DNA of 64,000 nt, taken from Cloeon dipterum (Eukaryota; Arthropoda; Insecta; Ephemeroptera; Baetidae). Made by a program: the position numbers and the translations under genes. The first letter of the stretch is position 1. Every line of letters begins with the position of its first letter. The stretch covers positions 11,532,001 through 11,596,000 of the forward strand of contig NC_088788.1 in assembly GCF_949628265.1 (NCBI RefSeq). The letters are read 5' to 3'. Below, one piece after another: positions 36,699-64,000 of this stretch. The notes under the pieces were generated by a model. It worked only from the letters and a program-made list of their open reading frames with translations. It did not search any database and was not told the DNA's origin.

Positions 36699-39600
36699 AT
36701 GACAGGGTTATTCAACTCATTGTCCAAAAGCTCTCTTCTCTACTCTTTTCTGACGTGTGTTATAACCAGTTGCAACTATGTAGACGAATCGCAACCCGAA
36801 TTCAAAGCACTCACTTTTTGCAAAGATGTGAAGTACAACGATAAAAGGTTTGTAAAATTATTTTATGTCAAGCCCTTGTGAATTGGGAATTTGTGACAGC
36901 AAGACAAGTGTTGATTTTTTATATTAATCAATTGTCCTATTCCTCTAAATTTTATTTTAGAACTATCTATTTAATAATGCGTCTAATTTATTTTCAGATA
37001 TGTACTGATAAGTACTTTAGACGGGACACTTTCTGCTTTAAACGTCGATGATGGAGGAAGCCTGCTGTGGAGTCTACCTACAGGGGACTCGCAAATGTTA
37101 TCTTCAAGTATTCATAGACTTGAGGTATATTATGTTATAACAAATAATTATTTATGCAACATTTCGAGTGCAGCTTCTAACAAAAGCCATACGAACACTC
37201 GTCATGATCAGATTAAATGCTATTTATTATGGTTACGTGTGCTAAATAACTTCCCATATTTATTTCTAGCTCACAAATCGTGGACAGTACATTCGGATGA
37301 TTCCATCCCTGAGTGGCAATTTGTATAAGTTTGACGGGAATTACATCGAACCCGTGCCCATCAGTGCAAACCACCTTTTGCAAAACTCCATTCGCTACTC
37401 TGACGATGTGATCTCCGGCGGCAGAGAGTCAATGACTTACGGAGTCGAGTTGGACACAGGACGTGTCATGTACGAATGCACCATGAAGGGATGCGAGCGC
37501 AATTTCACAGGGAAAGTTAGTGAAGGTGACATCCTGGTTGTTCAGCGGCAGTCGCAAACTATCAGAGCGCTCGAGCCAAGGTCTGGCGAGGAACGCTGGA
37601 ATTTCAGTGTTGCTCAACACGACGTGCGATTGCTCGCTGATCCAAACGCAGACTGTCACACCAGGGAGAGGATCACTGATGATGACCTGATTATCAAGGT
37701 TGTTGTGCCTGATGGCCTTGTTTGTGCCGTGAGCAAGGAGAACCCATCTCAAGTCGTCTGGAGTCACAAGGTGACTCACTTTCCTTCAAAATATTAAGTT
37801 AAAATTTTTGTTTTATTTGTTTCAAATGAAAAATTGCGAAGCCATTCTTTTCAGTTTTTAATTTATCTAGAACTTTCTACTTGAAATATTTTCTTTGAAA
37901 TAATAATGGCTTTCCTCTGGGGGAATTTCTTAGGATGGATAGCGTCCTCCCTGAAATTTTTATCTGCCATTCATCCTGAGTAACTCAAAGCAGATTAGAG
38001 CCAGTATATTAATTTTTAAATTCATAATTAATTTACTTGTTGTGAAGATAAAAATATTAATCCTACTTTGTGTGTCTTGGACACACATTAGACCAAGACT
38101 TTGTTTTTATTTTTAACCCACATTCAACTCCCAATTTAATTTCCAGTTCAAATTTCCTGTCGTCCACGCTTGGCAGTACCAGCAGGGTGAAGTGAAGGCT
38201 GTGGACTTGTTTAGCGGTTATTACCAGTCTACAAGCCACGCCCAATTCATGCCGTGTGCACCTTCCTTATACATCGGAATACACAAAAAACAGGTATACA
38301 TTCAGGAAAGCGTTCAACTTCAGCACAGCGTGGCCGAAGACGTGATACCTCTTATCACAAATGGGAAACCTGCGGTCATACCCTGGATTCCCTTCCCTGC
38401 GTCTTCATCTGCGATCGGCCTCATTGATTCCAATGACAAACCACTGCTGACCGACGAAAAGGAGGGTGACAAGACGACGGCTTTGTCACAGTCTGTGCTG
38501 TACGCATCTGAATATGCAAATGGTGAATTTTTATTCTTTTCAAGGGAAATTCGAATAGAGTTACTAAATGTTTAATTCTTCAGCTGGAATTATTTTTTTG
38601 CACTAATTGCCAATAATAAACAATCATTTTTAGGAAATGGATTTTTTTTGCTGACACCAGAGGACAAGGTCTGCAACAAGAATAGCACGATATCTTTAGA
38701 GGGAAACGCTTCTCAGTATATTGGGGGAGATGAGAAATTCCTCACACCATTTGAGCGCTGGTGGTGAGTAATTATAATATTGAAACTGAAACATAACTAA
38801 ATCATTTAATAATTGTGTGTAATCAGGGTGGAGGTTGTCATTATTTTTGTCTCTCTGGCGTTTCTTGCCCACTTCTTTCACACGCCAAAGAATCAGGCAC
38901 AGCCCCGTCGATTAACTGTGAGTAAATCAAGTATGCTTCAGCAACATTAATTCATTTATTTGTTATAATTTTTCAGAGCTACCTTCCTATTACGTCTGAC
39001 CATCAATTCAATTCGAGCTCCAACTTTGAATTTAGACAAAATTCAAGCAACAGGAACTCTGAGTGCGATAATAAAACTCCAGAGTTCTCATCTCGGTACC
39101 TGGATGATTTTGAACAAATCAGATGTCTAGGAAAGGGAGGCTTTGGAGTTGTTTTCGAAGCTAGGAAGAAAATCGATGATTGCCACTATGCTGTCAAAAG
39201 AATTTTGCTTCCTAACAGGTACAATTGGTTCTAATACTTTTCGAAACAAATTTAAACTTACACATTTTCAGGAAAGAGTCACAAGAAAGAGTGATGAGGG
39301 AAGTGAAAGCTCTTGCAACCCTTGGCCACGAAAATATTGTGCGCTATTATCATTCTTGGATAGAGTGTCCACCTCCTGGCTGGCAAACGGAGCAAGACAA
39401 ATTCTGGCTCAAGTAATTATTCGCATTTTAATTTGAAATACTGCTAAGAAATTATTTATATGCAAAATTGAACCTTTTGTATATGTAGTCAAATTTCCAG
39501 GTCCAAAGGATGAAAAGTCATATTTTTTAAAGCCAAAGCAAAGTAATCTTTTAAATTCAATTTAAAAATATTTTATAATCTTACAAATAATAATTGAGAC

Positions 39601-41422
39601 CGTAGAAGAAAAATTAAAAATAATCGTTAAATTAAAGCTAAGTTTCCAGTTTTATCTTGAAGGAAATTTGTGGAATAACGACAGAAGCAAATTTTTTCAA
39701 GATTTTTGTATCTATATTAAAGTAATGTCAACATTAAAGTTGAGATAGTAATAAATTAAACCAGATGAGCTAGACCAATTTTGCATTAGTTTATTTGAAA
39801 TTATATTGGCTGCATGTATGGCTGTGTTTGAAAGCCACAAAATCTCGGGAAAATTTTTCATTCTCTAAAGATCTATTATTGTTGTTTATTCTCACAGTTT
39901 GTCAATACAATCATGTTATGTCATAGTCAATAAAATTTATTAAAGCGTGTGAGAAAAGGCAACATTCCTGGCAAACAACTTGCAAAAACCCTGTCCAGGA
40001 GGACAGAGCCAGAGTGGGCCAGACTAATTTAACACCACTAGCACTTTAAAATCTTAATATTTATTTTCCTATTTAAAGAACCCAATTTTTATTTTTGTGC
40101 CAGTTTGTGTTACTTATTTCCAACCTGTTTATAGCGATCTTGCATCAAGGGATTCACTGCTCCCGAGCGATTTTGGAATGGAGTACAGCCAGACAAGCAG
40201 CAAGCACCCTTGTAGAAACGTTTGGAATGACTCCGTCTGCTTGAACATGCCAACAGACGATAGCAGCAGTTTGAGAAGACCCAATGGCGCCGAGATGAGC
40301 GACTCTTTTATCCAGTTCAAAGACGACACGCCCCAAAGAAAAGAAATAGTTGAAGATTCTGATGATACAGAATCCTTCGTCAAGTTCAGGCATGATACGC
40401 AAGAGTCTGTTAGCAACAGTCTTGAACTGCAGCCACATGTGCCTTTGAACATTCCCACGAGTGCAACCGAGAGCTGTGAAGAGGAGGACCTCGAAGTTTC
40501 AACTGACTCGGAGCAAATTAAGTTGGCTCCATCGCCCACGTTCCTCTACATCCAAATGCAGCTGTGCAAAAAGGAGAGCCTGCGTGAATGGCTCCAAAAG
40601 AGAAACGCCGGTGACTTCTCTGAGGAGGAGTCAAGCGATTTCTCTTTTGAGAAATCGATGTTTTATTTTCAACAAATCACCTTGGCTGTGGAGTACATTC
40701 ACAACCAGAATCTTATTCACCGAGATCTCAAGGTATCGTGCTATTTTATTTCAGTTGCCTCTGGTTCTAATAAAATCTATTTGACAGCCATCAAACGTTT
40801 TCCTCTCCATTGATGGTCATGTGAAAATAGGAGATTTCGGGTTGGTTACCACGATGGCAGATCCAGATAATGGGAGGACACCAAGCTTGGAGGAAAAGAA
40901 GTTCCAAAGTGCTTTTGCTGACAATGATCGGCACACTGCTAATGTTGGCACTCGCCTCTACATGAGTCCAGAACAGGTGATTTTTATTGTGTCTTCAATG
41001 GGCCTCATTCAATAGAAAAGTGCATGTAAATTAAATTTCCATGCAAACATGTCCCTTTTTGTGTTAGGTAAAAATTATAATTCTTTCTTTTTTAAATTCC
41101 AGATTTTGGGTCTGCCTTATGGACACAAAGTGGATATTTTTTCCTTGGGGCTAATTTTGTATGAAATGTTGGTGCCATTCGGGACCTTGATGGAGCGAGC
41201 ACAGAGTCTGCAGTTGGCCAGAGAGGGTCTCTTCCCAGATAGCTTCTCTACGCAATATAAGAATGAGGTAGGTGCCTCTTTATAATAACTGGAGAGGAGT
41301 TTGTGATGTATTGTGCATTTCAGTCTGAATTGGTCCGGCTCATGTTGTCGCACTCGCCAGATGAAAGACCAACAGCTTCACAAGTTCGCCAAAAGTTGCA
41401 GTCTTCAATCTCCTCTTCTTAA
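36699..41422 (+). CDS. PEK: PERK, ER-resident eIF2alpha kinase
   Basis: Twelve coding exons: 36699-36847, 36998-37124, 37270-37770, 38147-38522, 38634-38763, 38827-38917, 38977-39218, 39272-39412, 40135-40732, 40788-40976, 41103-41267, 41324-41422; 2808 nt, 935 residues, all phases fit. PERK senses unfolded protein in the ER lumen and phosphorylates eIF2alpha. Residues 1-25 are a signal peptide; the lumenal part follows ([30 protein letters not shown] beta-propeller-like blocks). The membrane segment is [17 protein letters not shown] at ~430-446. The kinase has the loop [10 protein letters not shown] (508-517), AVK lysine 532, an acidic Ser-rich insert (~586-720) splitting the N-lobe, HRDLKPSNV (781-789), GDFG (800-803) and [10 protein letters not shown]. 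The catalytic residues are intact. It is shorter than vertebrate PERK, mainly in the N-terminus and insert. The largest intron (39413-40134) is plain AT-rich DNA. Confidence 0.95.
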
Positions 41423-45022: not shown

Positions 45023-46405
45023 TTACAAGTGGTAGAAGGGGAATCCGGCGAAGCCGTGGTATCCGTAGCTGTAGACGAGGGGGGTGGCATCGGCCTTGAC
45101 TTCAGCGCTCTTGGCTTCGACGACGGGCTTGGCCTCCTCGGCGGGGGCGGCGGGGGCAGCAGCGGCCACGGTGGTGAAGGCGAGAGGAGCGTGGTAGGCG
45201 ATGGGGGCGGAGTAGGCGATGGGGGCGGTGTAAGCGACGGGGGCGGCGTAGCCGACGTGGGACAGCACATCGTGTTCCTTCTCGACCAGCTCGATCTTCC
45301 TGGTGGCGGCGGGAACGGCGGCGTCAATGGGCTCGTAGCTCTGGACCTTCACGGTCGACTTGGCGAGCACGGGGGCACCAGCGAGGAGGACGCTACGGCG
45401 GCGGCGGGACACCTCGACGGCGGCGGCGGGCTCCTCGACGGCGGCGGCGGGCACCTCGGGAACCTCGGGAACCTTGTCGGCGGCGGCGGCTTCGGCAGCC
45501 TCCTTGTAGAGGCGGGCGAACTCAGCACGAGCAGCAACAACCTGAACAATTGTATCCAAAAGTGTGAATTTTCCGTCCTCATAAATAAATAAATAAATTG
45601 ACTTATTATTTTTATTAAATCTTTAAAATGAAATTTTACTGGCTGAGAGAGAAATAAAGGAGAAATATTTACTAATTTGCGTAATTTCCCCTAAATATGA
45701 TTTTTTTAGAATAAAATAATTGAATTAAACCTTCGTTCTTCTCTGAGCTTAAATTTTTCATTTTAAATTGATTTTTCGTTGCAGTTTAAATTGCGGGAGA
45801 AATAAACCGAATGAATTCCGATTTCTCACCTCAGCGGTGTCCTGGACGGGTTCAGGGGCGATGAGAGCAGGGACGGCGGGGGCCTCAGGGGCGACGGGGG
45901 CCTCGGGCAGGTTGTTAGCGCCGAGGATGCGGAATCCACCGTGTCCGGCGGTGTACTCGACAACGTTCACCTTGCCGTTGGGGTCGACGTAGCTGTAAGA
46001 GCCGCGCACGTTGCCGAGAGCATCGCGGGCCTCGGCGCGGGTCTGCAGAGCCTCAACGTGTCCAAAGCTGGCCTGTCCCAGGACATCCTGAGCGTGGTAC
46101 TTGCTGTGCGAGAGAGCAATTGGGGCCACGATGGGCGCAGAGACGACGGGGGCCGCGATGGTGCGGGCGGCGAAGCCGTAGGGCCAGCCGATGGGGGCGG
46201 AGTAGAAGTAGTTCTGCGGGGCAGCGACGGCCACGGAGGCGAGGGCGGCGACGATCTGCAAAATTCACCGCAAAATTGGAGATTTCACATTCGAATTTCA
46301 CTGATATTAAAGAATAAGTTAAAATGAAAAAAAATCGAAAATGTTTAAAAGAATTCCAAAGGCATAACGAGACGCGGTGTGCGTTTGCCTTACCAGGAAC
46401 CTCAT
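45023..46405 (-). CDS. Secreted cuticular protein with RR-like chitin-binding block
   Basis: Three exons: 46405-46394 (MRFL only), 46255-45830, 45541-45023; 957 nt, 318 residues. The intron in the signal peptide after four residues is a usual trait of arthropod cuticle genes. Signal peptide MRFLIVAALASVAVAA, then PQNYFYSAPIGW. Residues ~85-121 hold a block like the Rebers-Riddiford motif: GNVRGSYSYVDPNGKVNVVEY, then AGHGGFRILG and NLP. The rest is low-complexity: AP/PV-rich spacers, EVPEVP repeats, RRRRS (a possible processing site), and four repeats of the type APIAYSAP near the C-terminus. The coding region is much more GC-rich than its flanks, with strong third-position bias, as in highly expressed structural genes. 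Expected in the extracellular cuticle. Exact subfamily uncertain. Confidence 0.88.
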
Positions 46406-51600: not shown

Positions 51601-51779
51601 CCAAAAATGAAAGAAATTCTCAACGTTTTATGATCCAAAAAATTGCTTTCGTATGGTATAAAAACTTAATAAAACTAAATTTACTCACTATAGCTCAAAC
51701 AATTATAAAAAAAAATTATTCCGAACAAGATATATGTAAAATATCATCATTTGATAAAATCATTGAAAGTTTAATATGA

Positions 51780-52060
51780 TGGAAACGTAAAAAGCTTCTT
51801 CAAAATTCTAGTGTTTTTGTGAGTTTTGACTCCAATAGACATTTTAGCAAGCAACTTTGCCCAAGACGAGAAAAATCTCCTGCACCGAAAATTTTGATTG
51901 AATCCAAATGCGAAAGGAGTGCCCATATATTGACATATAATTTAATTATTAACGAACCTCTATCTGAAATAACTCCCCGCCATCGTCGATGACATTTTCG
52001 CACAGCAGTGGTCCACCTGCTTATTCTATCGAAAAATCTTGAGCAACGTGTCTAATACAA
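51780..52060 (-). pseudogene. RING-WWE array, relic of exon 1 and intron 1 (copy 0)
   Basis: Matches the exon-1 areas of the intact copies: TTTTGTGAGTTTTGACTCCA, CATTTTAGCAAGCAACTTT, AAAATCTCCTGCACCGAAAA, then GCACAGCAGTGG. The start codon survives at 51995 (MSSTMAGSYFR and stop), but the GTGAGT donor is gone. The rest of the gene body is not present below 51780, so this copy is dead. Confidence 0.7.
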
Positions 52061-52439
52061 AAAAATAATATTTTATGCCATAGAAAATATAAGTTTTGGA
52101 ATTCAAGACATTTCAAAATATCCCTAATTTTATGTGAAATGATGAAAATGATATAATATTTTTTACATTTCGATAGGTTTATATTTATCTTCTAAAAAAA
52201 AGCTATAACGCTTTTTCCAAAAAGAGCTCCCACAAAACAACTTAAAAAAAAACTTATCTCCATAAACGCGCCGTGTATTTTCTTCTATAGAGTTTGAAAC
52301 TTCACAAACTAGTAATAATTGTGATATATTTTTTTATATGAACTTCTGCTCAGCGCTTCATTTGTTTACGTATGTAATTCACTTTTAATTCAATTATGGT
52401 AATTCATTGTTAAATTTCCTTATTGAATTTTACCAAAAT

Positions 52440-52760
52440 AACTTAAAAATACCTAACAATCATAATAAGAGATGATAATATGGTTGTTACCGTTGATTCG
52501 CGCACAAAATGTCGTGTCGGACAAGCCAAGCGACGAATACGTTGAAGCAAAGGTAGATGCTACGCTGCAAGTCAGGGGTGAGATTTTCTCACTGCAGCGC
52601 AGTGATATTTTCTCACCCCTGACTTGCAGTGTAAGAAGGGTAGTACCATCAGGTGGCAACCATTTTGTTAAGGTGAAATATCCTTCATCCCCGTTTCTTC
52701 CCGGTACTTTTCAGCCTGATCTGCCCCGACGCGCTAGCAGATTTAATTAAAGGCGCGTCA
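52440..52760 (-). pseudogene. RING-WWE array, promoter-side relic of copy 0
   Basis: Corresponds to the upstream blocks at 58555-58830 and 61900-62230: CACAAAATGTCGTGTCGGAC, GAAGCAAAGGTAGATGCTA, AAGGGTAGTACCATCAGGTG, and TTTCTTCCCGGTA then ATCTGCCCCGA. It is interrupted by a 65-bp perfect hairpin (52565-52629) that the sister blocks lack. Confidence 0.65.
52565..52629. mobile_element. Near-perfect hairpin insertion, 65 bp
   Basis: Arms CTGCAAGTCAGGGGTGAGA and its complement TCTCACCCCTGACTTGCAG, meeting at TTTTCTCACTGC/AGCGCAGTGATATT, so nearly the whole length pairs. Sister copies have GGATGCTATGAAGGGTAG at this point without the hairpin. The insertion is therefore a unit event, most likely a tiny fold-back element. 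Confidence 0.75.
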
Positions 52761-52798
52761 ATCGGCTGAGACCCAAAGTAGGTTTGTATATATGTATA

Positions 52799-52913
52799 TA
52801 TGGCAGACTCACCATTTTCGCCCAACTCACACTTCTCGCTAGGATAGGGATTAACATTGAATCTTCCCATCAGAGCGAGAAGTGTGAGTGAGCGGAAAGT
52901 GTGAGTCCCCCAT
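52799..52913. mobile_element. Short hairpin element, family copy 3
   Basis: TATGGCAGACTCACC at one end and GTGAGTCCCCCATA at the other, with CACACTTCTCGCTAGGATAG and GAGCGAGAAGTGTGAGTG inside. Same family as 34106 and 34679; this copy has the cleanest pairing. Confidence 0.7.
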
Positions 52914-52917
52914 AAAG

Positions 52918-53542
52918 ATATGTAGAGGAACAACAACGCGGTCCTGCTTTTTGTTGGAAGCCAACAATTGTCGGCGGTTTGAATTATTGTATTTTGCATT
53001 ATTGTTTAACAGCAGAAAGATGATTTTAAAATAAGAATTCAGTTTTCGTCCGTCAGCCACACGGTGCTGACGTGATTTGTTTTAATTGTGCAGAACCCGA
53101 TTCAAAGGGGTGAGTCCAACCGTCAGTTAACAAAAGAATTTATCACTTATTATTGTAAAAGAATTTCAGTTCTTGTACTTGATTTAAGTATCCGATCGGA
53201 TTTCCAACTATGTAACTAATACACCAACCAAATTCGTCAATCTGAATTAATCGGTCTTCATCATTTCAACCCTTTCATTCTCCCAAATTGAATCAAGTAC
53301 AAGAACTGAAATTGTTTTACAATAATAAGTGATAAATTCTTTTGTTAACTGATGGTTGGACTCACCCCTTTGAATCGGGTTCTGCACAATTAAACAAATC
53401 ACGTCAGCACCGTGTGGCTGACGGACGAAAAATCATCTTTCTGCGGTTTTACAATAATGCAAAATTACAATAATTCAAACCGCCGACAATTGTTGGCTTT
53501 CCAACTAAAAGCAGGACCGCGTTGTTGTTCCGCTACAGATAT
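52918..53542. mobile_element. Large fold-back element, ~260-bp arms
   Basis: Left arm 52918-53186 and right arm 53288-53542 are reverse complements over nearly their full length (GGAACAACAACGCGGTCCTG against CAGGACCGCGTTGTTGTTCC; GTCAGCCACACGGTGCTGAC against its complement). About 100 bp of spacer contains ATCCGATCGGAT. The left arm has short extra segments (TTTAAAATAAGAATTCAG), so arms have drifted. No ORF. It sits between copy 0 and copy A of the RING-WWE array. Confidence 0.85.
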
Positions 53543-53613
53543 AAGAATATATAAAAAATATTTTCAATAAACCAATTTCAATTTTCCGAGAAAAAAAATC
53601 AGAAATTTATTGT

Positions 53614-54681
53614 TCACTCAGAAGGCACAGTGTATCGGAGGCCAGCCACTCCCAAATGTCTGCTCTTGCTCAAGCCTCTCTTGATATGTTGGGTCTTCTG
53701 CATTCCAAATGTCTGAATGGACTTTACAAAATCCAAAATGTACTCCTGACCGTTTAGAATGCATTCAAATGTTGATTTTCCACTTTGAAACGCGTTCTCT
53801 ATATCAGTCTGCATCCTTGGCGCGTATGCCCACCAGCCAGACCGACTTTTGTAGAACCAAGAGTACTTGCCCATTGGCGCTTCAACGGCTCCAGTGGCGA
53901 ACATTTCTGGATCCGTGATGAAATATGGAGGAATAGGATTCCTGCACAAAGCGCAGGAGGACATTTGTTCATCCTTCATCAGGCCTTTAGCACAGGTGAA
54001 ACAAAATACGTGGCTGCATGGCATTCGGACGGGAAGCTCGGCGGGAAAAAGACAGATAGTACATTCCTCTGCTGGTTAAATATATTTTATATGCACATAG
54101 AGATCAAAGGAGAATGCGCTCTTACCTTTGTCAGTTTTATCGGTTTTAAGTCGTTTAGCCTCTGGTTCCTCGGAATCACGCTCATCATTGGTTATACTTG
54201 TTTCCTCTGCTGGTTACATATATTTTATTTGCACACAAAATAGAGATCAAATGAAAATACTTCTTACCTTTGTCGATTTTATCGGTTTGAAGATAATTCT
54301 GACGAAGTTCAGCCTCTGGTTCGTCTAAATCCCGCTCATCATCGGTTATAATTGTTTCCACATCAGGATCCGATTTTAAATCAACTTCTTCGTCGAGAAA
54401 TAATGCTGGTTCAAGAGAAGCTGGTGGCAGGTTAACAGGACGATAATTATTTATTGTGTATTTGTGATTTTTTATTATTTGTAATTTCAGTGTCTTATTC
54501 TTAACTTTACTACTTCAATCACGAGACTAAATAAATTAGACGAATAGTTGCACTACCAAAATAAGCATTTCCGTCTCTTGAATTGAACCACTCCTCAAGA
54601 GAGAGAACTCTCTCGATATAATCGTCACCATCTTCCTCTCCTATAGGCGCCGGACGTGCGTCTAGTGATTGCGAATCCATA
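53614..54681 (-). pseudogene. RING-WWE array copy A, broken
   Basis: The last exon (54068-53614) is fully open for 150 codons: RING ligands C-x2-C, CSHVFCFTC and CALC, then a WWE domain (SWFYKSRSGWWAY) and GVAGLRYTV. The rest is damaged. (1) The acidic exon ending at 54268 has a 2-bp insertion near 54361 (TTCCACACATC against TTCCAAATC in copy D), which shifts the frame. (2) Its 3' splice site is removed by a deletion of about 260 bp relative to copies B and D, joining at about 54448. (3) Exon 1 is deleted: sequence jumps at about 54890 from GAGCAACTTTG to TTTATATACTTG. (4) Part of the acidic exon and intron is duplicated (54127-54190). Another exon (54681-54557) has its own ATG (MDSQSLDARP). 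An unbroken protein is not possible from this layout; a shorter transcript from the RING exon cannot be excluded. Confidence 0.75.
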
Positions 54682-54739
54682 CTGAAAAAATAATTAACTT
54701 TTAATTATGTATTAAAACTGAAATGCTACCGTGCAGTAT

Positions 54740-55690
54740 GTACATATGTTCAAGAAATATGAATTTGACCCGGATTTGATAAAAATATAAAGAGTTAAAA
54801 ATTAACTATATGATGCAAAACTTAAAGGTTCTTCAAAATTATAGTGTTTTTGTAAATTTTGGCTCAAGATATTGTAGCGGAGCAACTTTGTTTATATACT
54901 TGTTGATTTTTCCCAAAATAATTGAAAAATATCTAACAAACATAAGAGATATCGTCGTGTCGCGTGAGCAAAACATATGTTGTGTCGGACCAGCCACGCA
55001 TACGCGTTGGAAGCAAAGGTGGATGTTATGAAGGGTAGCACCATCAGGTGACAACTACTGAAGGTGAAATAAGGGTAGTGACACCAGGTGGTGAGCAATG
55101 CAAACCTAAAGCTTTTATTCAAAATTAAGGTATTTTTGTGAATTTAGGCTCAAGACATTTTAGCGTGAAACTTTTGCCCACGACTAGAAAAATCACCTGC
55201 AGGCCGTCGTCGGTGTAAGAAATACCAAACGGCCCCGCAGAACACCTGAGGGTAGCAATTGAATAGTCAGAAGTTGGCCCGATAAAATTAATTGTGCACA
55301 AAAGTCACAAAGGTAGAAGCCCAAAGAGAAATCTCACTTACATTTGATCTTTAAAAAAGGAGTTAGAAATCCGATCGCTTAAAAGATCGTAGGTTGGCAA
55401 GTAGCACACCAGCTTGCGTGCTTTGCGTGGTGGTGGTTTTCGGGCCTCTGACTATTAAATCACCGAGAGTGCAACGCATTGCACTCCCCTCATGCGCCTG
55501 CGAGGTATCCCAAATATCGCAATAATTGGGGTTCTGAGCATGCGGAGAATGATGTTTACATCACTTTAAAATCGTCTTTCGACTCACAAATAAAGAAATT
55601 TAAGCAATTTAAGAAAAAGGGAGATTGCAAGAGAGAAAGAAAAATAAAAAATTAAAATAAATCACTCGTCTGTTTGAATTTTTTACGTGT
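54740..55690. other. Copy A upstream region and a unique insertion
   Basis: 54950-55120 matches the promoter-side block of the other copies (GGATGTTATGAAGGGTAGC, AAATAAGGGTAGTGACACC). From about 55130 to 55210 a second exon-1-side fragment occurs (TTAGGCTCAAGACATTTTAGC). From about 55290 to 55690 the sequence has no match in the other units (AACGCATTGCACTCCCCTC). No gene seen. Confidence 0.5.
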
Positions 55691-55703
55691 TGATTTCATC
55701 AAA

Positions 55704-55830
55704 TGCCAATTAATCAATACAACGTTAAATGTCGTTGTGTTCTCGTTAGATCACCGAAGTTAAGCAACTAAATATGCGTGTATAGTAAGTATAGCTGGAT
55801 GGTGTTCAACGCCTGGCTGCCGGCTGCATA
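55704..55830 (+). repeat. 5S rRNA-derived sequence (SINE3-like or 5S pseudogene)
   Basis: Contains TTCTCGTTAGATCACCGAAG followed by TTAAGCAAC, the internal-promoter A-box part of 5S rRNA, preceded by a GCCAA start and followed by degenerate AGTAAGTATAGCTGGATGG, which parallels AGTACTTGGATGG. The rest of the gene has decayed, so it is not a working 5S gene. GC-richer sequence goes on to about 56060 without known similarity and may be the body of a 5S-headed SINE. Confidence 0.65.
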
Positions 55831-56134
55831 CCTCTAGGGAAACTCGACGTTTTTGCTGGTTCGCACCTTTCCAGCGTGCGTGATTTGGCTTCACGGAACG
55901 AATGTCTAGCATTTCAAAAAGTCCTCGGTGCGGAGGCAAGTGGCCCTTCTGTGGGCTGGGTCCCTGTGCGGCCTGGTGCGTCTATGTTATCCGTTCCCGG
56001 TGTTTCAGCATTCATGCTAGTACAGTGCGCGCCCTTTCCAGTCCTCGGACTTGGATGGGAATAAAAAGCGAAAAATATATTCCATATTTAAAGAAATAGT
56101 ACATTTATATTTTAAAAATTTACAATTGAACAAG

Positions 56135-56225
56135 GTACAATGTTCCAAACAATATCAGAAAATTACTGTGCACTAAGAAGGCACACTATATTATCTGAGA
56201 CCATCAGCCACTCCAATGATTGAGG
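56135..56225 (-). pseudogene. RING-WWE array, 3' tail relic
   Basis: AATATCAGAAAATTACTG, AGAAGGCACA and TCTGAGACCATCAGCCACTC match the 3'UTR and last ~20 codons of the WWE exons (GVAGLRYTVPS). It has small indels and stops, and the similarity ends at about 56225. It is another lost gene copy, between copies A and B. Confidence 0.7.
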
Positions 56226-56639
56226 ACGTAAGTTGCCCTTGTATTAATTTGAGGCTCCTCGAACGCGAACCAATGGCCGCTACAAGCTAAAAACGATATT
56301 TCGTTGGTAATAAATATTTACTTTAAAAAAAATTTGAGAAAAATACACCTTGTCTCTGTAATCCTTGATATGGCTCTATTATTTCTCATGAAAGCAATTT
56401 TTACAAACAACGCAGGAACTTCAAGAAGAGTGAATAAGATCATAACAATTTATACTAATTAATTCTTTTATATATATATATATATATGGCATCTGCAAAA
56501 AGCATAATATATTATTTAAGAAACTCAAAATTTAATTCGTTCTTTATTATAAATAAAAACAATTTGGATATTCCTGATATAGTATTTTTTAATAAAACAA
56601 TGTACCATTTTCCTTACAATATCAGAATATTACTGTTCA

Positions 56640-58252
56640 CTACGAAGGCACAGTGTATCTGAGACCAGCCACTCCTAAATGACTGCTCTTGCTCAAACCT
56701 CTCTTGATATGTTGGATCTTCTTCTTATACATCCCGAATGTCTGAATGGATAATATGAAATCAAAAAAGTACTTCTTGCCATTCAGAATGCATTCAAATG
56801 TTGATTGTCCACTTTGAAACACGCTCTCAATATCGGTCTGCATCCTTGGTGCGTATGCCCACCAGCCAGACCGACTTTTGTAGAACCAAGAGTACTTGCC
56901 CATTGGCGCATCAACGGCTCGAGTGGCGAACGTTTCTGGATTCGTGATGAAATTTGGAGGAATAGGTTTCCTGCACAAAGCGCAGGACTTATTTTGTCCC
57001 TTAATCATGCCTCTTGCGCAGGTGAAACAAAATACGTGGCTGCATGGCATTCGGACGGGAAGCTCGGCGAGAAAAAGGCAGATAGCACATTCCTCTGTTG
57101 GTTATAAATATATTTTAGTTGCACACAAAATAGAGATCAAAGGAAAATAATATCTCACCTTTGACGATTTTATCGGTTTTAAAATTATCCTGGCGAAGTC
57201 GTTTAGCCTCTGGTTCGTCTAAATCATGCTCATCGTCGGTTATAATTGCTTCCAAATCGGAATCCAAATTTAAATCAACTTCTTCGTCGAGAAATTCTGG
57301 TTTAACAATTGGAGGAAGGTTAACAGGATGGTTTTCTGTAAAAAGATTTATCTGTATAAGGATGGTGTGAGTGATCTTTTCGCCACTACTGTCCTAATAA
57401 CTAGTTTGCATTAAACGTGTATCGCCAGGTGGCAGTACAAAGGTGTGCGACAAGCAACGCACCCTTAGTGCACCTTCTCCCCCTCGCACGACACAATTTT
57501 CTCTCTCCGGCTAGGATGAGTTTTTGTGCGAGAATTTTCTATAAAAACTTTGATCTCAAATTAATAAGACCCGCATTGCGGGGTAAGTGTCATAATTATT
57601 TATATTGGGATGCAATTTTTTCATTGTTGTAATTATTTATTGCATTTGTGATTTTTAATTATTTGTAATTTCACAGTCTAAGTATTAACTTTACTACTTG
57701 AACCACGAGACTAAATAATTAAGAGGAATAGTTGAACTACCAAAAGACGCATTACTGTCATGGCCGGTCGCCACTTGCCCTAGCATCGTTCCGTCATCAT
57801 CTTCATCATCATCATAAAAATCATCATCTTCATCATCATCAAAAAAATCATCATAATCATCATCATCATCTTCCTCTTCTACAGAATCCGTGTTTAATGC
57901 TCTCATTCGAGATTCAAACTGAAAAAATACTTAACTTAAGCATTTATGTATTAAAAATGAAATGCTACTGTGCAGTATGTACATATGTTCAAGAAATATG
58001 AATTTGACCTGGATTTGATAAAAATTAAGAGTTAAAAATTAACTGATAATTATGATGCAAACTTAAAGCTTCTTCAAAATTATAGTGTTTTTGTAAATTT
58101 AATTGGCTCAAGATATTGTAGCGGAGCAACTTTGGCCCCCGACTAGAAAAATCTCCTGCACCGAAAAATTTAGTCCGAGTGCGAAAAGAGTGCACATGTA
58201 TCATCTTTAGTTTACTCACAAGCGAAAGCATAGTCCTTCGGCGCGATGGCAT
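56640..58252 (-). CDS. RING-WWE E3 ligase-like protein, array copy B (intact)
   Basis: Four exons: 58252-58220 (MPSRRRTMLSL), 57918-57741, 57335-57159, 57094-56640; 843 nt, 280 residues, every junction in phase. Exon 2 is extremely acidic: a GAT-repeat run encodes about 30 Asp/Glu residues with a few Phe and Tyr. Exon 3 has FLDEEVDL and TDDEHDLDEPEAKRLR, the latter with a possible nuclear signal. Exon 4 is a C3HC4 RING (EECAIC, MPCSHVFCFTCARG, SCALCRKPIP) followed by a WWE domain (YSWFYKSRSGWWAYAPR), and ends GVAGLRYTVPS. RNF146/Iduna has the same RING-WWE order and the very similar PCKHVFC, CALCR and GVAGLR blocks; there the WWE binds iso-ADP-ribose and switches on the RING. Compared with RNF146, the basic stretch after the WWE core is reduced (MYKKKIQHIKR). 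Activity is inferred from intact zinc ligands. Confidence 0.8.
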
Positions 58253-58554
58253 TTTCGCACAGTGGTGGTTCACCTGCTACCTTCGACAAGACAAACTTGA
58301 GAAACACGTACCTAAAACGAAACAATTGTAACAAAAAATGCAAAAGCCATTGGCTGGTTTTAATATAGAAAATGTCGGTTCATTGTGATTAGTTACAGGA
58401 AAATTTTTAAATGTGTTCGTCAAATTCACTTAAATCGATTTATGATACTAAACAATCATCTTAATTGTTTATATCCTTATTGATTTTTCCCAAAATAATT
58501 GAAAAATATCTAACAAACATAAAGAGATATATATTTACCGTCGGGTCGCGTGAG

Positions 58555-59457
58555 CACAATAACATATGTTGTGTCGAATCGGCCACGCATACGTTGGAAG
58601 CAAAGGTGGATGTTATGAAGGGTAGCGCCATCAGGTGACAACCACTGAAGGTGAAATAAGGGTAGTGACACCAGGTGGTGAGAAAAGCAACCTTAATAAG
58701 TTTTACCTCTTCTCCCCATTTCTTCCTGTCTTGACATTCTTTGGCTTAATCTGCCCCGATGTCGTAAAAATAGCAACTAACCCCCGCGCCCTTTTGAATG
58801 TTTTGCTGAACTTCAGATCGCTATAATTAATTAAATATGTATGGCTTGTAAATTTAAAGGGTTCGCTGCGCTGGGGCTGTATTAATAATTTGTTAATATA
58901 TGCTGTGGTTTATATTTATTGATGAGAACCCATTTTTAATTTTTCAATTCTTATATCTGGTGGATATATGATGTGGCAAAACCTGAATCTCCTTAATTAA
59001 TTGCTCACGTGATGACTCATACATTACATTATCATTTTGCCAAATATTTTTAGTTCAATCTTGAGCTAGACTACAGAAAACTCAGAAATGATTGTAAGCT
59101 ATACATGTCCATCTTTGAAAGGTTTACCAAAATACGTTATTCCCACATCACACAATTATCGGATTTTTTTTGTGATGAATGCTACTAAGGGAGTTAAAAA
59201 GTGTTTTTTTTCATATTCTTGACGAGATTTACTGCTGGGTGCAGTAGTTGTGCGTTCTTCGTGACAGAAAATTTTCCTTGGAGTTATATGAATGTATGAC
59301 CACTGCATGAAGAAAATGTTTGCAATAAACTAAAAAAATTATTTCGTTTTATATTGTAAATAAAATCTACTTGGATATTAAGTGCAAGTATTTATTTAAC
59401 ATATTTTCACTAAAACAATGTACAATTTTCCTTACAATATCAGAAAATTACTGTTCA
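58555..59457. repeat. Segmental duplication unit between copies C and B
   Basis: About 900 bp nearly identical to 61950-62921, including TTCTGCTGAACTTCAGATCG-like sequence, TTTAAAGGGTTCGCTGCGCT and ACTGCTGGGTGCAGTAGTTG. It covers the presumed promoter of one gene and the 3' flank of the next. Differences are mainly short indels (for example 59085-59300 against 62475-62770), indicating recent duplication. Confidence 0.85.
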
Positions 59458-61287
59458 CTATGAAGGCACAGTGTATCTGAGACCAGCCACTCCTAAATGA
59501 CTGCTCTTGCTCAAGCTTCTCTTGATATGTTGGATCTTCTGCATTCCAAATGTCTGAATGGATTTTCCAAAATCCAAAATGTACTTCTGGCCGTTGAGAA
59601 TGCATTCAAATGTTGATTGTCCACTTTGACACGCGTTCTCTATATCAGTCTGCATCCTTGGCGCGTATGCCCACCAGCCAGATCGACTTTTGTAGAACCA
59701 AGAGTACTTGCCCATTGGCGCTTCAACGGCTCCAGTGGCGAACGTTTCTGGATTCGTGATGAAATTTGGAGGAATTGGTTTCCTGCACAAAGCGCAGGAC
59801 CTTTTTTGTTCCTTCATCAGTCCTTTAGCACAGGTGAAACAAAATTCGTGGCTGCAAGGCATTCGGACGGGAAGCTCGGCGGGCATAAGACAGATGGCGC
59901 ATTCCTCTGCTGGTTAAATATATGTATTTTAGTTTCACACAAAATAGAGATCAAAGGAAAATTATCTCTTACCTTTGTCGACTTTATTGGTGGCAAGATT
60001 ATTTTGCTGAAGTCCTTCTGCCTCCGGTTCATTGACATCACGTTCATCATCGGTTAAAATTTTTTCCATTTCTGGATCCGATGTGATTTCAATTTCCTCG
60101 TCAAGAAATACTTGTTCACCAAGTTGTGGACTTCCACCATAAGCTCTTCTTTCTTCTCGTATACGATTTATCACAACCATAATTTCAGCTTCAGTAAAAG
60201 GAAGGTCACCCCAGCGTTCACCAACCGTATTCCGATACCATCGTAAATATTCTGCTATGTCAGTTTCTTGCACCCACGCAGCCCTTCGGTCAATTAGTCC
60301 TTGTATCTCGTCTCTATCGTCATACCGTGAAATAATCCAGCCACTTGTTCTTATGGGCTGAAAAAAAATGAAAATATATATTAAAATTAAAATGCTATTC
60401 AGCAGTATCTGTTTCGTTCTAAAAATTTGAATTTAACCCCCACATGTGATAAAAAGAGTGACATTTTTATTGATGCAAACTTAAAGCTTCTTCATAATTA
60501 CGTTTTTTTGTTTTTGTGAATTTTGGCCCAAGACATTTTAGCAAGCAACTTTTACCCCACACCACAAGAAAAATAACCTGCACCGAAAAATCACGTTCAT
60601 TGGTTAAAATTTTTTCCAACTCTGGATCCGACAAGATTTCAATTTCCTCGTCGAGAAATACTACTTTAATTTCTTCTCGTACACGATTTATCGCATCTAT
60701 ATAACCCTAAATGCTATTCTACTGACATCTCGACGTCTGCGGTATCTTTCACGAAGTCCATCCGTCCTCATGAATGTTCGCAAACTTCTAGGGACAGTTC
60801 CTCTGGGCTGAAAAAAATGAAAATATGAAACTATAAAATACTATTCTGCAGTATCTGTTTAGTTCTAAAAATTTAACTTTAACCCCCGCATGTGATAAAA
60901 ATATTGAAATTTTCAATGATGAAAACTTAAAGCTTATTCATAATTATGGTTTTCAATTTTGTGAATTTTGGCTTAAGACATTTTAGCGAGCAACTTTTAT
61001 CCCACAACAAGAAAAAATACCCAGCAAGAATTTGGATATCCTCCAGGATATCCGGAGGATATACTTTTGTACAGCTCAATAGGGCGGATATCCTCGGATA
61101 TACAATTTTTTTTGCTGGGTAACCTGCTCCGAAATATGTCGATTGAATCCAGCATGTACGAAAATAGTGCGCGCATGTTAGCATCGACATAGTTATTAAT
61201 TACTATATGGAACCTCTCATCTCTAATTCTTTTTAGGAGTTTAACTTTAGCAAGGTAATCTTCAAAGACACTCACCATTGACGACAT
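59458..61287 (-). CDS. RING-WWE E3 ligase-like protein, array copy C (intact, different N-terminus)
   Basis: Exons: 61287-61276 (MSSM), possibly 60807-60727 (PRGTVPRSLRTFMR...), 60357-59973, 59906-59458. With the optional exon 927 nt, 308 residues; without it 281; both in frame. The long exon is unlike copy B: PIRTSGWIISRYDD, AAWVQETDIAEYLRWYRN, VGERWGDLPFTEAEI, VINRIREERR, then the shared FLDEEIEITSDPEMEKILTD and EPEAE. The last exon has all RING ligands (EECAIC, MPCSHEFCFTCAKG, SCALCRKPIP) and the WWE. Its acceptor is a CAGCAG pair, so one residue may vary. Between exon 1 and the long exon lie a partial duplicate of the long exon (60590-60810) and a TA-flanked MITE. Start chosen by homology with the exon-1 areas of the other copies. 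Confidence 0.75.
60358..61135 (-). repeat. Internal tandem duplication inside copy C
   Basis: Two units share the order: CTGAAAAAAATGAAAATAT, GCAGTATCTGTTT, TTCTAAAAATTT, ACTTAAAGCTT, TTTGTGAATTTTGG, CATTTTAGC. The left unit starts at 60358, the right at 60808. Between them (60590-60720) is a shortened copy of the acidic coding exon (INRVREEIKVVFLDEEIEI), lacking the VGERWGDLPF part and ending in an in-frame stop region. Origin by unequal exchange is likely. Confidence 0.7.
61020..61119. mobile_element. 100-bp MITE with TA target duplication (Tc1/mariner type)
   Basis: Ends CCCAGCAA and TTGCTGGG, flanked by TA on both sides (61018-61019, 61120-61121). The sister segment at about 60578 reads AAAAATAACCTGCACCG without the insert, which gives the exact empty site. 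Inside are repeated GGATATCC words. No ORF. Confidence 0.85.
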
Positions 61288-61949
61288 TTTCACACAGCGG
61301 GGTGATCCTGCTTCTATATATCGACCAGACAATGCTTAGAATACCTCACCTAAAAAAGCATATAATAATTTTTAGAATAATTAATGTATTATGACACTTT
61401 AAAATTAGAGATGGTTGAGTAGCATAATATATAAATGTTATATTATATTTTAACATTATTGGATGGTTTATCCCGTTTAAAAAGTAAAGCTCCTAGCCAG
61501 TAAACGCTCCAAGCAAAACCAATTTAAAATATTTACTCTATACACGCGCTGCGTTTATTCTAGAAAGACGCAGATACAAAATATGTATATAATTGATTTG
61601 AGTATTTTAAGTCACTTAACTATTACCAACTTTTTACCTTCCCAACATAAAACAGCCATAGTAAAAGAGGTGCTCAATCATCACCCAATGCTCTATTTTA
61701 ACAAAAAATGAACAGTCAAGGGAAGCGCGCTGCTGATGGTTTGAATTTTTATGTTCGGTTATTTGGATTAGATGAAGCAAAATTTGTGAATGTTTTCGCT
61801 TGCGTTTCATACGCAATTCGATCACGACGTTGACCATTCATTGTAATTGTTAGTTTCCTTCTTGGTTTTTACCAAAATAACTTAAAATACCTAAGAAACA
61901 TTAGAGATATAGCTACCGACGAGTCGCTGGAGCACAAAACACAACAAAT

Positions 61950-62921
61950 GTTGTGTCGGATCAGCCACGCCACCGCATACGTGAAAAGCAAAGGTGGATG
62001 CTATGAAGGGTAGCGCCATCACGTGGCAACCACTGAAGGTGAAATAAGGGTAGTGACGCCAGGTGGTGAGAAAAGCAACCTTAATAAGTTTTATCTCTTC
62101 TCCCCATTTCTTCCTGTCTTGAAATTCTTTGGCCTAATCTGCCCCGATGTCGTAAAAATAGTAAAAAAAGCAACTAACCCCCGCGCCCTTTTGAATGTTT
62201 TGCTGAACTTCAGATCGCTATAATTAATTAAATATGTATGGCTTGTAAATTTAAAGGGTTCGCTGCGCTGGGGCTGTATTAATAATTTGTTAATATATGC
62301 TGTGGTTTATATTTATTGATGAGAACCCATTTTTAATTTTTCAATTCGTATCGCTGGTGGATACCTGAATCTCCTTAATTAATAACATAAGATTGAGCTC
62401 ACGTGATGACTCATACATTACATTATCATTTTGTCAAATATTTCTTGTTCAATCTTGAGCTAGACTACAGAAAATTCTGAAATTGTAAGCCATCTTTGAA
62501 AGGTTTACCAAAATACGTTATTCCCACATCACACAATTATCGGATTTTTTGTGATGAATGCTACTAAGGGAGTTAAAAAGTGTTTTTTTTTTTCATATTC
62601 TTGACGAGATTTACTGCTGGGTGCAGTAGTTGTGCGTTCTTCGTGACAGAAAATTTTCCTTGGAGTTATGGAATTGCAGGGACTGTGAAAGTGAATTAGA
62701 TCGTAACAATTCATTCATAGGCTTGATTCTTTTTGTTAAAAATAAATTATACATGAATATATGACCACTGCAAGAAGAAAATGTTTATAATAAACTAAAA
62801 AATTATTTCGTTTTATATTGTAAATAAAATCTTTTTGGATATTAAGTGTAAGTATTTATTTAACATATTTTCACTAAAACAATGTTCAATTTTCCTTACA
62901 ATATCAGAATATTAATGTTCA
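61950..62921. repeat. Segmental duplication unit between copies D and C
   Basis: Sister of 58555-59457. It carries an extra segment around 62665-62760 (GACTGTGAAAGTGAATTAG) and lacks a few bases elsewhere. Contains the presumed promoter of copy C and the 3' flank of copy D. Confidence 0.85.
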
Positions 62922-63620
62922 CTACGAAGGCACAGTGTATCTGAGACCAGCCACTCCTAAATGACTGCTCTTGCTCAAGCCTCTCTTGATATGTTGTTTC
63001 TTCCGCTTATGCATTCCGAATTTCTGAATGGATTTTCCAAAATTCAAAATGTACTTCTGGCCGTTGAGAATGCATTCAAATGTTGATTGTCCACTTTGAA
63101 ACGCGTTCTCTATATCAGTCTGCATCCTTGGCGCGTATGCCCACCAGCCAGATCGACTTTTGTAGAACCAAGAGTACTTGCTCATTGGCGCTTCAACGGC
63201 TCCAGTGGCGAACGTTTCTGGATTCGTGATGAAATTTGGAGGAATTGGTTTCCTGCACAAAGCGCATTGCTTTTTTTTCCCCTTAATCAGGCCTTTTGCG
63301 CAGGTGAAACAAAATTCGTGGCTGCATGGCATTCGGACGGGAAGCTCGGCGGGAAAAAGGCAGATAGCACATTCCTCTGTTGGTTATAAATATATTTTAG
63401 TTTCAAACAAAATAGAGATCAAAGGAAAATTATCTCTTACCTTTGTAGACTTTATTGGTGGCAAGATCATCCAGAAGACGAAGTCGTTTAGCCTCTGGTT
63501 CGTCTATATCACGTTCATCATCGGTTAAAATTGTTTCCAAATCAGGATCCAATTTTAAATCGACTTCTTCGTCCAGAAAAACTAGTTTAATAATTGGTGG
63601 AAGGTCAACAGGACCGTTTT
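62922..63620 (-). CDS. RING-WWE E3 ligase-like protein, array copy D (5' end outside the window)
   Basis: Two exons visible: 63620-63441 and 63376-62922, in phase (G|AG). The first encodes ENGPVDLPPIIKLVFLDEEV, then TDDERDIDEPEAKRLRLL; closest to copy B. The second is RING (EECAIC, MPCSHEFCFTCAKG, CALCRKPIP; KGKKKQ in the linker) plus WWE (YSWFYKSRSGWWAYAPR) and GVAGLRYTVPS, then TAG. Earlier exons, expected by analogy with copy B at about 64.0-64.6 kb, are beyond the window. No lesion in what is visible. Confidence 0.75.
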
Positions 63621-64000
63621 CTGTAAAAGGATTTATCTGTAAGGATGGTGTGAGTGATCTCATCATTAGCATTGTGGCGCCTTCTTGCCACTTACTGTCC
63701 TAATAACTAGTTTGCATTAAACGTGTATCGCCAGGTGGCAGTACAAAGGTGTGCGACAAGCAACGCACCCTTAGTGCACCTTCCCCCCTCGCACGACACA
63801 ATTTTCTCTCTCCGGCTAGGATGAGTTTTTGTGCGAGAATTTTCTATAAAAACTTTGATCTCAAATTAATAAGACCCACATTACGGGGTAAGTGTCATAA
63901 TTGTTTATATTGGAATGTAATTTTTTCGTTGTTGTAATTATTTATTGCTTTTGTGATTTTTAATTATTTGTAATTTCACAGTCTAAGTCTTAACTTTACT
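63621..64000 (-). other. Intron of copy D, shared block with copy B
   Basis: 63690-64000 is almost identical to 57390-57700 in copy B (AACGTGTATCGCCAGGTGGC, CTCTCTCCGGCTAGGATGAG). Copy A lacks this block through deletion. No gene of its own. Confidence 0.7.

Follow-up and report, generated by a model that had tools for sequence, protein, structure and literature searches.

Does a tandem array of RNF146-like genes in the ephemeropteran insect Cloeon dipterum encode additional readers of poly(ADP-ribose) (PAR), or proteins in which the same domain pair has been turned to another use? RNF146 is the textbook example of a ubiquitin ligase that PAR switches on, and tankyrase is one of its usual writers. 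The array occupies one end of the 64,000-nucleotide stretch analysed here (the window: assembly GCF_949628265.1, contig NC_088788.1, positions 11,532,001 to 11,596,000), in which a first-pass annotation, made from the letters alone, had described genes combining a RING and a WWE domain and had proposed a family of ADP-ribose-guided ligases. Judged by their sequences, the four copies in the window and three close copies beyond it (together cluster A) are RNF146-derived E3 ubiquitin ligase paralogues with an altered predicted ADP-ribose pocket, and not simply extra PAR readers.

Four intact RING-WWE genes in tandem

Four RING-WWE exons of 449–455 bases each lie on the minus strand between 51.7 and 64.0 kb of the window (overall 53614–63376). 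Both domains score above the Pfam curated cut-off in every copy, the RING as zf-C3HC4_3 and the WWE with E-values of 1.6e-12, 1.2e-8, 1.4e-11 and 4.1e-12 for copies 1 to 4, so that the annotated count of four bodies on one strand within 12 kb stands. With the exon of copy 3 as sole phmmer query, the top solved structure is the RING-WWE of human RNF146 (4qpl, E = 1.7e-28). Direct-repeat families with four copies have spacings of 3029, 2812 and 3470, and all four copies (W1 to W4) splice, with GT-AG sites and compatible phases, to intact coding models of 270–281 amino acids (W1 270, W2 280, W3 281, W4 273; Table 1). Length differences between the RING-WWE regions of the window copies are whole codons, and the frame of W1 is open whether its mini-exon is included or skipped.

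Relics were recovered with blastn (Table 1). That the array leaves the window proved true of copy 4, whose exons 1 and 2 lie past the window end (64523–64046), but the next RING-WWE match among those listed is at C3:11.718 Mb, 122 kb from that end. The flanks downstream of W3 (58764–59287) and W4 (62161–62669) contain ungapped stretches that are 94–100% identical; the hint of gene conversion is weak, because a longer gapped match (59287–58375 against 62669–61755) reaches only 85%. AlphaFold2 prediction of the RING-WWE exon of the four window copies was too poor for use (mean predicted local distance difference test score, pLDDT, 34.6; predicted template-modelling score, pTM, 0.36).

Pocket residues of the WWE domain

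Residues of the RING and of the WWE pocket were compared in an alignment of 17 distinct RING-WWE sequences from the genome with human RNF146, in which we presume roles for K61, W65 and K175. Human numbering agrees with that of the residues which PMC9367489 names. The eight zinc ligands, and the arginine that follows the last of them (R74), are present in all 17 sequences. Within cluster A, Y107, W114, Y144 and Q153 are kept in all seven copies; R163 is replaced by Q in all seven, and K175 by L in five and by I in two. Substituting Y107A, Y144A or R163A in the human WWE eliminates PAR binding (PMC9367489). It is because R163 has become Q and K175 L or I, and because R163A abolishes binding in the human protein, that we read the pocket of the seven copies as altered, and "ADP-ribose-guided" is not supported in its first form.

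Loss of these positions extends beyond cluster A. R163 is kept in 2 of the 17 sequences (the canonical gene described below and L022) and K175 in the canonical gene alone. Y144 is also lost in three of four copies of cluster B; Y107, Y144 and Q153 are lost in both distinct sequences of cluster C; W114 and Y144 are lost in L021 and L023, and Y144 and Q153 in L022.

A canonical RNF146 and the origin of the array

The first-pass annotation had proposed looking for a single-copy RNF146 elsewhere. A search of the 190 Mb genome, which has five large contigs (C1–C5), with the W3 exon as query, found a separate, canonical and intron-split gene at C2:10.045 Mb (L026/L033), a few kb from cluster B. Over RING-WWE it shares 47% identity with human RNF146, and it has K61, Y107, W114, Y144, Q153, R163 and K175, with Q at the position of W65. 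It carries an intron inside the WWE that the array copies lack. The position of the intron before the RING, however, agrees to within one codon between the canonical gene and the array, and its phase is identical; we therefore infer descent of the array by DNA duplication. Retroposition was rejected as the origin of the array because several introns are retained; L021 and L023, each a single frame (417 and 440 amino acids), may have arisen in that way. L001, the best WWE match, was also considered as the canonical RNF146 and rejected, its frames looking like TRIP12.

Constraint on the RING-WWE region

Comparison of the copies codon by codon, also proposed with the first-pass annotation, gave ratios of nonsynonymous to synonymous substitution rates (dN/dS, Nei-Gojobori) below 1 over RING-WWE in all 21 pairs of cluster A (range 0.07–0.53). 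Fisher's exact test returned p < 0.05 in five of the six pairs tested, which, having ancestors in common, are not fully independent. Neutral evolution was simulated 5,000 times along the copy tree, scoring stops only and ignoring insertions and deletions: RING-WWE was stop-free in all seven copies in 0.72% of runs, with a mean of 2.65 stop-free copies out of seven. Constraint is weaker on the acidic segment that precedes the RING (ratio of nonsynonymous to synonymous differences, pN/pS, 0.09–0.84 over 21 pairs).

Variable N-termini joined to a constant RING-WWE

The contrast drawn in the first-pass annotation between a near-constant RING-WWE exon and differing N-terminal exons is borne out: among the four window proteins, identity is 80–90% over RING-WWE and 25–62% over the part before the RING. 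W2 and W4 start with a short Arg-rich exon followed by an Asp-rich exon 2, W1 has a distinct upstream exon and also a mini-exon, duplicated in frame, and the N-terminal exon of W3 matches no Pfam family at E-values up to 1. Common to all four, and present in the seven cluster A copies, is the acidic segment FLDEE...TDDE[RH]D...EPEA. KRLR comes directly after it in W2 and W4, and the W1 mini-exon has KRLK; by eye, both resemble a nuclear-localisation signal. RPAPIGEE, found in the N-terminus of W1 (54680–54557) and in none of the other three copies, resembles a tankyrase-binding motif, and may be due to chance.

Members of the family across the genome

The W3-exon search scored 34 candidates and gave at least 27 matches with E ≤ 0.001; match counts from this and the other genome searches are lower bounds. 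At least 22 open RING-WWE bodies lie on five chromosomes, besides the one canonical RNF146 gene. The annotated expansion of RNF146-like RING-WWE genes is thereby supported. L035 (C2:27.89 Mb, E = 7.2e-4), a RING-only match, was left out of the count. Two further genome queries yielded no extra intact body, the sole addition being a stop-ridden match at C4:7.154 Mb. In the tree, cluster A forms a group (95/93), as does cluster A with three members of cluster B (98/97).

Cluster C comprises two sets of identical frames, of six and two members. Three of its loci (L028–L030) are 99.8–99.9% identical over 3,423 bases, and other pairs are 49–87% identical over whole loci; the cluster reflects either recent segmental duplication or uncollapsed assembly. 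Apart from the RING-WWE bodies, a separate cluster of WWE matches lies at C3:33.311–33.325 Mb (L039, L040), with no RING in the frames read, and extra WWE matches occur at C1:27349006–27349212 (L041) and C4:19842831–19843608 (L043), at neither of which the frame scan returned a frame.

Tankyrase-type ADP-ribosyltransferase loci

Once activated by PAR, RNF146 ubiquitylates tankyrase and the partners of tankyrase (PMC12407064). Candidate writers were sought in the same genome. A search for PARP catalytic domains gave at least 24 exon matches (34 candidates scored), and a human tankyrase-2 fragment gave at least 36 (46 scored). Three of the latter, 72–83% identical, are exons of a canonical tankyrase at C1:22.94 Mb; the remaining 33 reduce to about 26 loci of tankyrase-type ADP-ribosyltransferases (ARTs), seven first-exon matches being merged with adjacent ones. 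A full-length PARP catalytic match is found at C1:0.93 Mb (E = 5e-72) in addition to the canonical tankyrase. For the two ART loci compared, from the C1 and C3 clusters, tankyrase was the best relative in the PDB (2.7e-22 and 4.7e-29).

An ART pattern search covered 26 stretches (L048–L073), namely 23 of the approximately 26 extra loci with their flanks and three stretches of the canonical tankyrase; the exon counts that follow cover pattern-matching exons only. Among 17 distinct C-terminal exons, the position that we take to be catalytic is Glu in 16 and Val in one. The HG[ST] motif is present in 21 distinct exons, one of them canonical. Pfam found the PARP domain alone in three ART frames, in L066 below the cut-off (E = 0.0017), and no ankyrin or SAM domain in L063. 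The trio on C4 (L063, L064, L069) consists of single frames of 257–262 amino acids, and some of the tankyrase-type loci contain stops. One ART locus (L050, C1:24.79 Mb) and the RING-WWE gene L023 are about 60 kb apart (C1:24787592–24848794), which may be chance given the number of loci.

What the altered copies may do

We consider it probable, though well short of assured, that the array is part of an RNF146-derived RING E3 family which has expanded in this genome and whose WWE reads an altered form of ADP-ribose. Under this explanation the RING would be active as a ubiquitin ligase and the N-terminus would set target, partner or location. The altered WWE would recognise some other ADP-ribose form, or a weaker one, examples being mono- and terminal ADP-ribose and tags written by the co-expanded tankyrase-type ARTs. 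The tag would then bring the RING to modified proteins, leading to their ubiquitination. WWE domains differ in preference: that of PARP11 favours terminal ADP-ribose, that of RNF146 iso-ADP-ribose, and the DDHD2 WWE shows no PAR binding (PMC9404506). For the roles in genome defence or stress that the first-pass annotation raised, nothing was seen that speaks in either direction. The best argument that some ADP-ribose form is still being read, albeit an indirect one, is the ART expansion. A broader version, which we hold to be doubtful, is that the tankyrase–RNF146 pathway has multiplied on both sides, the extra ART loci (of which at least some lack ankyrin repeats) and the RING-WWE bodies (nearly all with R163 replaced) forming a new many-to-many code of writing, reading and degradation. 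The ADP-ribose form in use would not be the iso-ADP-ribose found inside PAR, and the N-terminal exons would serve as the address.

Several observations weigh against the main explanation, an expanded family with an altered WWE. With R163 and K175 gone, ADP-ribose binding could just as well have been lost altogether. The two expansions may be unrelated, no ART being tied to a given ligase. The older branch order is open in the tree, and a single altered, duplicated ancestor for all bodies is not established. The Fisher test for W2 and W4 is not significant (p = 0.065), and L012, a cluster A copy outside the window, has an in-frame stop in exon 2 (L038:2387–2708). A later ATG in L012 could still begin a protein.

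If instead the copies were ordinary PAR readers, they would bind iso-ADP-ribose and switch on the RING exactly like RNF146, the parts of R163 and K175 being taken by different side chains. The RING-WWE architecture, the four pocket residues kept throughout cluster A, a lysine-rich loop that in W2 and W4 precedes position Q163, and the presence of the canonical tankyrase as well as a further full-length match to the PARP catalytic domain all fit such a role, which we nevertheless regard as unlikely given the replacements of R163 and K175 in all seven copies and the effect of R163A. The same replacements also fit a WWE that binds no ligand and serves a structural purpose only, in RING proteins, constitutive or dominant-negative, that would find their targets through the N-terminus. 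The further losses in the cluster C pair of sequences, and the existence of WWE domains without PAR binding such as that of DDHD2, point the same way; the invariance of Y107, W114, Y144 and Q153 in cluster A does not, and here too we put the probability low.

Two explanations would deny the array any function or reality, and the data leave little room for either. Decay of a pseudogene array that happens to be young would account for the relics, for the stop in L012 and for the RING-less L019. Pseudogenes are recognised by stops or frameshifts together with absence of constraint, whereas all four window copies are open across their modelled exons, differ in length by whole codons and, on the dN/dS values and the neutral simulation, are constrained; we judge decay very improbable. 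That uncollapsed haplotypes merely appear as tandem copies is harder still to credit. Cluster C, with six identical RING-WWE frames of which three stand in near-identical loci, is what such an artefact would look like, but the window copies differ (dS 0.13–0.24), have distinct N-terminal exons and follow one another at 2.8–3.5 kb on a single contig.

Comparison with known systems

The array resembles RNF146 (Iduna) in that the RING is directly followed by the WWE and the zinc ligands are the same, and the RING-WWE of the seven cluster A copies shares 36–38% identity with the human chain. It differs in being multicopy, in the replacement of R163 and K175, in the absence of an intron from the WWE and in its new acidic N-terminal exons. 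The C-terminus of human RNF146 contains many tankyrase-binding motifs (PMC9688111); the four window proteins stop 6 or 7 residues past GVAGL at the WWE end and lack a C-terminal tankyrase-binding region. The canonical L026 model ends 13 residues after GVAGL. As for tankyrase, the extra ART loci share a Cys-His-Cys-Cys motif and usually the Glu that we take as catalytic, but differ in having the PARP domain only in the three frames scanned with Pfam. TRIP12, HUWE1 and Deltex are also WWE-bearing ubiquitin ligases, although their ligase domains differ from that of the array and they are not its nearest relatives. TRIP12-like (L001) and HUWE1-like (L042) WWE domains, so named from their reading frames, occur in this genome.

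Radiation induces RNF146 in a tardigrade (PMC11233135). None of the open-access publications listed announces an expansion of RNF146 or tankyrase, judged by title and first lines of the abstract for a share of the matches and with subscription papers outside the scope. The array is a new variant within RNF146-type ligases. The sequences suggest that an ADP-ribose-reading ligase route has been multiplied and changed in this lineage. A genome with one canonical RNF146 and a canonical tankyrase, plus many R163-replaced paralogues that are constrained where tested, amounts to a natural series of WWE variants. With it, and with the species' own canonical gene as control, what decides the ADP-ribose form read by a WWE becomes directly testable. 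A functional link between the ART and RING-WWE expansions, if true, would raise the novelty of the family beyond that of an RNF146 variant.

Features of the window and related loci

Table 1. Array features (window coordinates) and related loci elsewhere in the genome.
Feature	Location	Strand	Basis or remarks
W1 (copy 1) last exon, RING + WWE, stop TGA	53614..54068	-	Pfam, spliced model
W1 mini-exon, an in-frame copy of a segment of the penultimate (acidic) exon	54126..54206	-	GT-AG
W1 acidic exon (FLDEE...TDDERD...)	54268..54420	-	Spliced model
W1 upstream exon, start codon ATG at 54680	54557..54681	-	Spliced model
W2 (copy 2) last exon, RING + WWE	56640..57094	-	Pfam, spliced model
W2 acidic exon (FLDEE...EPEAKRLR)	57159..57335	-	Spliced model
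W2 exon 2, long Asp-rich run	57741..57918	-	Spliced model
W2 exon 1 (MPSRRRTMLSL)	58220..58252	-	Spliced model
W3 (copy 3) last exon, RING + WWE	59458..59906	-	Pfam, phmmer, spliced model
W3 exon 2, acidic segment and N-terminal part differing from W1, W2 and W4	59973..60357	-	Spliced model
W3 exon 1 (MSSM)	61276..61287	-	Spliced model; same exon in L010, L011, L012
W4 (copy 4) last exon, RING + WWE	62922..63376	-	Pfam, spliced model
W4 acidic exon	63441..63620	-	Spliced model
W4 exons 1 and 2, past window end	64523–64488 and 64196–64046	-	Spliced model (L036)
Relic, 5' part of a copy	51749..52066	-	blastn pieces 71–79% (one 35-base piece 89%) against 5' regions of W2, W3, W4
Relic, upstream repeat of a copy	52403..52562	-	blastn 71–73%
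Relic, 3' tail (WWE exon end and flank)	56129..56222	-	blastn 77–82%
Relic of a second exon 2 within W3 intron 1	60588..60806	-	blastn and stop-broken frame
Cluster A, seven close copies	C3: 4 in window, 1 at 122 kb, 2 at 227–230 kb past window		
Cluster B, four bodies	C2:10.032–10.042 Mb		
Cluster C, eight divergent frames	C5:2550860–2680762	both	L024, L025, L027–L032
Single RING-WWE bodies (three)	C5:29.03, C1:24.85, C4:7.64 Mb		
Other W3-exon matches			L026/L033, two exons of one gene; L019, RING-less; L034, stop-broken relic; L035, RING-only
Extra ART loci	C1:8.318–8.326 Mb (L045); C3:7.52–8.56 Mb (L047, others); C4:28.744–28.767 Mb (L063, L064, L069); singles		

Elsewhere in the window, the minus strand at 45758–46264 encodes a cuticle protein with a Pfam Chitin_bind_4 domain, a mark of an arthropod genome, and a plus-strand frame at 37270–40813 resembles by eye the eIF2-alpha kinase PERK, its kinase domain being matched by Pfam.

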